NCBI GenBank assembly: GCA_946886995.1
Contig: CAMPJU010000020.1
Coordinates: 1 to 11,467, forward strand
Source of the DNA: an uncultured Lysobacteraceae bacterium
GTDB taxonomy: Bacteria > Pseudomonadota > Gammaproteobacteria > Xanthomonadales > Xanthomonadaceae
Direction of reading: 5' to 3'
DNA: 11,467 nucleotides
Part shown: piece by piece, positions 915 through 1,343 of the stretch
How the letters are laid out: each line of letters starts with the position of its first letter
How positions within the stretch are numbered: the first letter of the stretch is position 1
Notes under the pieces: model-generated
What the model saw: the letters and a program-made list of their open reading frames with translations, nothing else
Told to the model about the DNA's origin: nothing
The model's database searches: none
Program-made: the position numbers and the translations under genes

Positions 915-1343
915 ATGAGCAAGTCCAGCACCAAGCCCGTCGCCGCCGCACTCGGCGCCGCCATCGCCGGCCTCGCGCTTTCCGGGTCCGCGTTCGCGAT
1001 GCAGCCGCTCGCCCAGGGGTACATGTTGGGCGCTGCCGCGGGCGATGCCCACGACCACGAAGCGGGCGAAGGCAAATGCGGCGAGGGCAAGTGCGGCGAA
1101 GGCAAGTGCGGCATGGCGAAGATGGACACCGACCAGGACGGGCGCCTGTCGCAGGCCGAGTTCGCGGCCGCGCACGATGGCGATACCAGCAGGTTCGCCG
1201 CGCACGACCCGGACGGCGACGGCTTCATCAGCGCCGAGGAGATGGCCGCGCACCACGCGAAAAAGGCCGAAGCCACGCCGGCGGACGACAAGGCCGCGAT
1301 GGGTGAAGGCAAGTGCGGCGAGGGCAAGTGCGGCGGGATGTGA
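915..1343 (+). CDS. hvfA: HvfA-like secreted RiPP metallophore precursor with EGKCG repeats and two EF-hands
   Basis: A 142-residue exported protein. Residues 1-28 form a Sec signal peptide: basic start with K3 and K7, Ala/Gly/Leu-rich core 9-24, predicted cleavage after S-A-F-A28. Three EGKCG pentapeptides follow in tandem (52-66), then two canonical EF-hand loops (D71-T-D-Q-D-G...E82 and D98-P-D-G-D-G...E109), a linker with H113/H114, and two more EGKCG repeats (131-140). The only five cysteines (55, 60, 65, 134, 139) are those of the EGKCG motifs. In Haemophilus HvfA, cysteines in this motif are converted by HvfB/HvfC to oxazolone-thioamide groups that bind copper; the same chemistry here is inferred from the motif and the adjacent hvfB and hvfC. 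The precursor would act in the periplasm or outside the cell. The EF-hand pair suggests an added calcium-responsive module. The ORF can be read as just an EF-hand protein, but the EGKCG blocks and neighbours argue otherwise. Confidence 0.88.
   Translation: MSKSSTKPVAAALGAAIAGLALSGSAFAMQPLAQGYMLGAAAGDAHDHEAGEGKCGEGKCGEGKCGMAKMDTDQDGRLSQAEFAAAHDGDTSRFAAHDPDGDGFISAEEMAAHHAKKAEATPADDKAAMGEGKCGEGKCGGM
1068..1112 (+). repeat. Three tandem 15-bp repeats coding EGKCG (N-terminal block of hvfA)
   Basis: Three head-to-tail copies of a 15-bp unit (GARGGCAARTGCGGC) at 1068-1082, 1083-1097 and 1098-1112. They differ only at synonymous positions (GAA/GAG, AAA/AAG), so selection or recent duplication preserves the peptide. 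Each copy presents one modifiable cysteine. Confidence 0.95.
1305..1334 (+). repeat. Two tandem 15-bp repeats coding EGKCG (C-terminal block of hvfA)
   Basis: Two further copies of the same 15-bp unit at 1305-1319 and 1320-1334, close to the end of hvfA and separated from the first block by the EF-hand region. The near-identity of the two blocks makes slippage or recombination that changes repeat number plausible. Confidence 0.95.

Follow-up and report, generated by a model that had tools for sequence, protein, structure and literature searches.

Captophorins (HvfA, or oxazolin, of Haemophilus, fontiphorin and gonophorin) carry EGKCG repeats and have maturases of the HvfB/HvfC type. They share both features with the hvfA-type precursor gene analysed here, which lies at positions 915-1343 of a stretch of 11,467 nucleotides from an uncultured Lysobacteraceae bacterium (assembly GCA_946886995.1, contig CAMPJU010000020.1, forward strand; the whole stretch is called the window). 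In PMC12668002 the modification of HvfA is assigned as 5-thiooxazole, also in relatives of HvfA, while the earlier assignment was oxazolone/thioamide. The oxazolone-thioamide chemistry assumed in the first-pass annotation of the window is thus disputed. The same source reports that fontiphorin and gonophorin bind copper, and that FonBC modifies a substrate with two repeats but not one with a single repeat. The captophorins differ from the protein of the window in that the term EF-hand is absent from the main text of PMC12668002.

EF-hand/EGKCG chimaeras have been defined in PMC12452194, where the EF-hands follow the EGKCG domain at its C-terminal end. A role in calcium homeostasis or signalling is suggested there, with EfhP as the example and with citation of the EfhP work. 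The Buf_EGKC|EF-hand_5 chimaera (type 2 of PMC12452194) resembles the protein of the window in its signal peptide or N-terminal hydrophobic helix, a short EGKCG region, two EF-hands, and genes for a multinuclear non-haem iron-dependent oxidative enzyme (MNIO) and a DUF2063 protein. The N-terminal EGKCG region and the two EF-hands are present in both, but the EF-hands are C-terminal in the chimaera, whereas a second EGKCG arm (residues 131-140) follows them in our protein. The text of PMC12452194, as far as it was available, makes no mention of a C-terminal EGKCG arm.

In EfhP (PA4107) of Pseudomonas aeruginosa the EF-hand loops span residues 88-99 and 115-126; the protein is predicted to face the periplasm and has DUF692 and DUF2063 genes as operon neighbours (PMC4053335). 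It binds Ca2+ with a dissociation constant (Kd) of 13.7 uM at about two sites after decalcification, gives almost no heat with Mg2+ or Sr2+, and is likely a molten globule when decalcified; calcium binding raises its hydrophobicity, and loss of Ca2+ binding abolishes the calcium induction of pyocyanin (PMC9132961). Its four EGKCG repeats have been noted, and dual sensing of calcium and iron by the repeats has been raised (PMC11559002). Our protein is like EfhP in having two EF loops 27 residues apart, EGKCG repeats, and adjoining DUF692 and DUF2063 genes (PMC4053335, PMC11559002). EfhP differs in its tail of 29 residues (from the construct end at residue 155 and the loop positions), which presumably holds no C-terminal arm, as in the one-armed class described below. 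That class has a spacing of 9 residues before the first loop and a cysteine-free tail of about 29 residues, and our protein has 6 residues and a C-terminal arm. The first-pass annotation left it open whether EF-hand-containing HvfA proteins had been characterised. The kind of protein is already described in these papers, with EfhP characterised for Ca2+ binding, and the two-armed layout is what is added here.

The precursor protein of the window

The gene and its parts are as follows; all are on the + strand, and residue numbers refer to the precursor protein.

915..1343 (+): hvfA-type precursor gene, 142 aa, EF-hand pair flanked by EGKCG arms (translation of 915-1340, Pfam, NCBIfam)
915..998 (+): putative signal peptide, residues 1-28, with AFA end (Sec type by eye; region aligns among homologues)
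1005..1034 (+): residues 31-40, PLAQGYMLGA, a conserved stretch that follows the signal peptide (L32, G35 and Y36 invariant in a 29-sequence alignment)
1068..1112 (+): N-terminal arm with three EGKCG, residues 52-66 (sequence and alignment)
1113..1274 (+): predicted folded core, residues 67-120 (AlphaFold2 model)
1125..1160 (+): EF-hand loop 1, DTDQDGRLSQAE, residues 71-82 (Pfam; starts six residues past the last N-arm cysteine)
1206..1241 (+): EF-hand loop 2, DPDGDGFISAEE, residues 98-109 (Pfam, ligand conservation)
1305..1334 (+): C-terminal arm with two EGKCG, residues 131-140 (sequence and alignment)

The EGKCG motifs occupy residues 52-56, 57-61, 62-66, 131-135 and 136-140, and the five cysteines of the protein are all found within them and nowhere else. 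Both loops, DTDQDGRLSQAE and DPDGDGFISAEE, are canonical EF-hand loops. The translation thus agrees exactly with the first-pass annotation, which had described a signal peptide (here again judged by eye), three EGKCG repeats, two EF-hand loops and two further EGKCG repeats. An in-frame ATG also exists at 867, and the alignment of homologues begins at the ATG at 915. The PLAQGYMLGA stretch is a candidate recognition motif for HvfB/HvfC, judging from its conservation.

Of 2366 candidates in a protein search with the precursor, 1319 are homologues at E <= 0.001. Four Pfam EF-hand models match above their cut-offs, and the NCBIfam model for the HvfA family, NF050137, scores 33.4 bits with a cut-off of 19.5. 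These matches, together with the 1319 homologues, argue against a chance open reading frame (ORF). NF050137 and the adjoining hvfB and hvfC genes bear out the earlier assignment as an HvfA-type precursor. The equivalog model for HvfA sensu stricto, NF050188, scores 21.8 bits against a cut-off of 95, and the protein is not a member of that narrower family. Membership in the XopAW family (NF041410) was rejected at 33.4 bits against a cut-off of 120, with a match to the EF-hand part only. The expectation that annotation pipelines would label the protein merely as an EF-hand protein did not hold up: the NCBIfam model assigns the HvfA family, although the names of the listed homologues are a mixed set (EF-hand, low-complexity, hypothetical, HvfA).

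AlphaFold2 was run on the 29-sequence alignment, giving a model without metal or modification. The mean predicted local distance difference test score (pLDDT) is 62.4 and the predicted template modelling score (pTM) is 0.42. The helix-loop-helix pair is predicted with confidence while the arms are low: averaged over blocks of ten residues, pLDDT is 67 for residues 61-70, 91-92 for 71-110 and 76 for 111-120, and about 40-49 in the arms.

Layout classes and the hvfABC operon

The precursor gene is the first gene of an hvfABC operon, which is preceded by phoU and followed by rnt (ribonuclease T), as assigned by Pfam and NCBIfam.

1340..2161 (+): hvfB, MNIO (DUF692) maturase (NF003818, 395 bits, cut-off 360; PF05114)
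2154..2912 (+): hvfC, DUF2063 partner protein with RiPP recognition element (RRE) (NF050145, 271 bits, cut-off 142; PF09836, PF22106)

RiPP stands for ribosomally synthesised and post-translationally modified peptide. The frames were scanned from 1313 for hvfB and from 2157 for hvfC; judging from the reading frames, GTG 1340, which overlaps the stop of hvfA, is most likely the start of hvfB, and ATG 2154 that of hvfC. Apart from the phosphate regulator phoU, no signalling partner was recognised in the window by the Pfam and NCBIfam scans.

Among the best 120 of the 1319 homologues, EGKCG-type cysteines occur on both sides of the EF pair in every protein. When genome contigs were scanned, 270 places were confirmed, and the 80 best of them were treated as loci. 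For L070 no precursor was found under the filter used and it was left out, so that 79 of the 80 loci were classified: 36 are two-armed, 41 are one-armed and 2 lack EF-hands, which leaves 77 EF precursors. One-armed precursors have EGKCG motifs only before the EF pair. They are found mostly in Pseudomonas, and also in Steroidobacter, Nitrosomonas, Stenotrophomonas and Lysobacter. A second search with a one-armed Pseudomonas query gave 2397 homologues, the best 120 of which are all one-armed.

The first-pass annotation had proposed a search for EF-hand/EGKCG proteins next to DUF692 genes, and such loci were found. hvfB is located directly downstream on the same strand in all 36 two-armed loci, and hvfC is also part of the locus in 35 of them. 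Of the 36, 25 have the same phoU-hvfABC-rnt order as the window (this count was redone after L011 had been mislabelled by a second, spurious ORF, a label that persists in the one-armed tally given next and in the ligand alignment below). No phoU or rnt was detected around the 41 one-armed loci in the stretches examined. In these, hvfB is directly downstream in 11, upstream in 2 (L065, L067) and without a copy in the stretch examined in 28 (L024, L026, L030-L037, L039-L042, L047-L049, L051, L053, L058, L059, L062, L064, L068, L069, L075-L077). All 26 genomes behind the 28 orphan loci have an HvfB match elsewhere, above the cut-off in 25. Presumably, the orphan one-armed precursors in many Pseudomonas are modified in trans, or not at all.

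Some individual one-armed loci are arranged differently. In Lysobacter prati (L067, 1309-4471), hvfBC is flanked by two one-armed precursors. In Pseudomonas sp. CFBP13508 (L065, 1858-4459), hvfB and hvfC are followed by a one-armed precursor. The orphan gene of L033 follows an NADH dehydrogenase-like gene (ORF read by eye).

Wider sampling gives an impression of the distribution. In the family of Vulcaniibacterium gelatinicum (L001), at least 77 of 198 genomes have a single match that spans the EF core into the C-arm (match reaching at least profile position 132; manual count among the matches listed). In a sample of the class, NF050137 matched in 98 of 369 genomes. One of 29 newly fetched loci from this sample (L091-L119), L113, is two-armed. 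The other 28 show no EF-hand, but some of them lie at contig ends (e.g. L093, L095, L097) and may have lost an EF-hand to truncation. A search pattern was matched by 22 stretches of viral contigs, none of which encodes a relative.

Conservation of the EF core and geometry of the arms

Calcium ligands were compared in an alignment of 199 rows from 197 proteins (L029 and L038 each matched twice). The first-pass annotation had named EF loops not conserved among orthologues as a finding against its proposal, and the calcium-ligand residues proved to be conserved. Loop 1 begins with D (position 1) and ends with E (position 12) in 199 of 199 rows, although one genome-search pattern covered the start of loop 1, which biases this figure for the genome loci. 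The same two ligands of loop 2 are found in 197 of 197. Position 3 is always D or N in both loops; D also occupies position 5 in 196 of 199 (loop 1) and 193 of 197 (loop 2). No cysteine occurs inside or between the EF loops in any of the 197 proteins. The distance between loop starts is 24 rather than 27 residues in L060, L072 and L113 (the last by eye), and also in L027 and L055, whose HvfB belongs to the main EF clade described below.

The N-terminal arm is held at a fixed distance from the core. From its last cysteine to the first calcium ligand there are 6 residues in 144 proteins, including our protein, and 9 in 45 (together 189 of 197); the other 8 proteins have 10-18. A spacing of 9 was found in all 119 one-armed Pseudomonas-type relatives in which two loops were found, and in 40 of the 41 one-armed loci. 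The first C-arm cysteine, by contrast, follows loop 2 at a variable distance of 8-32 residues. As the N-arm spacing is fixed while the C-arm spacing varies in the same proteins, shared descent alone is a poor explanation.

Cysteine numbers vary. In 156 two-armed proteins the N-arm has 1-6 cysteines and the C-arm 2-7, without correlation (rho -0.09, p 0.28). There are 23 distinct combinations, 2+2 being the commonest (36 proteins), and the 3+2 arrangement of our protein occurs in 18. The first-pass annotation had proposed that calcium assembles a defined 3+2 copper site. Since the counts vary independently and one-armed relatives exist, a fixed site of this kind is unlikely. Every one of the 197 proteins, however variable its arms, has at least one tandem pair of EGKCG-type motifs five residues apart: in both arms in 111, only in the C-arm in 43 and only in the N-arm in 43. 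This agrees with the activity of FonBC on a two-repeat and not on a one-repeat substrate (PMC12668002).

History of the layouts in HvfB trees

The HvfB gene tree was used as a proxy for the history of the precursor itself. The first sample comprised 51 of the 79 loci, with hvfB of at least 200 aa; 20 of the 29 class-sample loci (19 EF-less, 1 two-armed) entered a larger tree, the remaining nine having no hvfB of sufficient length. Most EF-type loci are strongly supported as a group apart from the EF-less EGKCG systems (50 rows, support 100/97), and in a further tree 48 EF rows fall on one side with a support of 98.8. In a reduced tree, the one-armed rows, 11 in number, make up a single clade nested within the two-armed rows (support 100/97). 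This nesting indicates that the two-armed layout may be the older one within the EF group and that the C-arm was probably lost towards the one-armed type. A single clade of two-armed rows is disfavoured by the approximately unbiased test (p-AU 0.025), a result that is suggestive only, as the bootstrap is unsettled and the group was chosen once earlier trees had been seen. The reduced tree, on which this test was also made, left out seven rows (L116, L065, L060, L072, L113, L063, L079), and when these are kept, the layout labels need 7 changes in all.

Several of these rows show peculiarities. The HvfB of L065 clusters with those of two-armed Pseudomonas loci. In L063 and L079, both from Lysobacteraceae, the precursors are EGKCG-only while HvfB is found inside the 50-row EF clade, and a loss of the EF core is possible. 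L060, L072 and L113 have EF/EGKCG precursors whose HvfB falls outside the main EF clade. The idea of separate EF origins for these three was dropped, as the test does not reject a single EF clade (p-AU 0.497); separate fusions are possible.

A proposed calcium-folded core between copper-binding arms

We favour, with a confidence a little above even, a reading of two parts that stand together: ORF 915-1343 codes for an HvfA/oxazolin/captophorin (EGKCG-type) RiPP precursor with an EF-hand core between two modifiable arms, and this core folds in a calcium-dependent manner after export while the MNIO-modified arms bind copper. HvfB and HvfC would convert the EGKCG cysteines of both arms in the cytosol, probably to 5-thiooxazoles. 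The low cytosolic Ca2+ would keep the core unfolded, so that neither the enzyme nor the Sec channel is obstructed, and Sec would export the modified precursor. The calcium-rich periplasm would then fold the core and keep the exported chain compact. Folding would anchor the final heterocycle of the N-arm where the first EF helix is entered, and both arms would remain flexible copper ligands, chiefly buffering excess copper. Cytosolic Ca2+ of bacteria is sub-micromolar (PMC4053335), and periplasmic Ca2+ reflects or exceeds the outside level (PMC9132961). With the cytosolic level well under the Kd of EfhP and the periplasmic level high, the chain should be unfolded in the compartment of HvfBC and folded in the one where it encounters copper. 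This step would follow by analogy with the one-armed relative EfhP. Likewise, it is from characterised relatives that we infer cysteine modification, Ca2+ binding and copper binding of the protein, and their coupling.

A more far-reaching version we regard as possible rather than probable. Here, the EF-hand would be a calcium latch for RiPP maturation: HvfBC would thread the molten chain from arm to arm in the low-calcium cytosol, and after Sec export periplasmic Ca2+ would fold the core, lock the last N-arm thiooxazole on the EF helix and make copper binding calcium-dependent. The two-armed form would be ancestral, and EfhP would be a one-armed descendant with a copper site of modified cysteines.

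Several points weigh against calcium-dependent folding between copper-binding arms. hvfB is missing from the stretch around 28 of the 41 one-armed loci, so that a protein of the EF/EGKCG kind can lie apart from its enzyme. The fixed N-arm spacing could partly reflect shared descent. Many EF-hand proteins fold in a calcium-dependent manner, and export may be unaffected by it. Among the 50 best Foldseek rows almost every hit is an EF-hand protein, but the E-values are weak (best 0.094) and the matches add little beyond the sequence evidence. EfhP was studied without its signal peptide, made in E. coli (PMC9132961), and is one-armed by size; the words copper and DUF692 are both absent from the main text of that paper. 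No experiment on a two-armed member was found in the literature searched, and no test of EfhP as an MNIO product in the open-licence literature on EF-hand, MNIO, DUF692, EGKCG or EfhP.

The protein might instead be a calcium sensor that reports periplasmic Ca2+, and perhaps copper or iron via modified cysteines, to a partner, with copper buffering being secondary. The pyocyanin phenotype and the calcium-induced hydrophobicity of EfhP (PMC9132961), the dual sensing considered by the EfhP authors (PMC11559002) and the mention of calcium homeostasis or signalling in PMC12452194 all point in this direction. However, no partner is identified in the EfhP and chimaera literature as far as it was available, arm length and cysteine number vary freely, which is unlike a tuned sensor, and 25 of the 36 two-armed loci lie between phoU and rnt, with phoU the only candidate partner recognised in the window; we consider a sensor doubtful. 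That the arms vary while the core is constant would also fit an EF pair that is a soluble and stable spacer against aggregation of the copper-loaded arms, with no separate control by calcium. We regard such a passive core as unlikely because a spacer need not keep its calcium ligands so invariant, or hold the final N-arm cysteine in a register of 6 or 9 residues.

It is very improbable that Ca2+ draws both arms into one defined 3+2 copper site. In its favour, every one of the best 120 homologues has an arm on either side of the core, but the numbers of N- and C-arm cysteines are uncorrelated in their 23 combinations, 3+2 is realised in 18 of 156 proteins, the distance to the C-arm ranges over 8-32 residues and 41 of the 77 EF loci are one-armed; moreover, the arms are disordered in the AlphaFold2 model, which is free of metal and modification. 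We hardly expect that the core binds lanthanides rather than calcium. Lanmodulin is the best sequence match to the precursor profile, and to its EF core, in the PDB (E 8.7e-9), loop 2 has proline as its second residue in 74 of 120 proteins, and the spacing between the loops is short, as in lanmodulin. Membership in the lanmodulin family was rejected, though, with NF053806 scoring 28.1 bits against a cut-off of 135, and position 9 of loop 1 is serine in all 120 database proteins. There are two loops here, while lanmodulin has four EF-hands and is not known to carry EGKCG arms. EfhP binds Ca2+, and the other ions reported for it are Mg2+ and Sr2+, no lanthanide being among them in PMC9132961 as far as it was available.

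The two-armed proteins bring together MNIO-modified copper peptides and EfhP, a protein investigated for calcium sensing in bacteria. Should the arms be modified and the core fold on Ca2+, studies of unmodified EfhP could have overlooked its metal-binding groups, and EF-hands would offer a means of timing RiPP folding after export. The fixed spacing of 6 or 9 residues between the last N-arm cysteine and the first calcium ligand gives a concrete constraint that can be tested.

Other genes of the window

Beyond the operon, the window codes on the - strand for a CBU_0592-family membrane protein (3591-3860), RlmB (3851-4603) and ribonuclease R (~4613-7045), followed by a CorA-like transporter on the + strand (~7145-8188). 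The - strand gene at 8185-11298, with a provisional start codon, codes for an error-prone DNA polymerase of the DnaE2/ImuC type (NF004225, 1494 bits).
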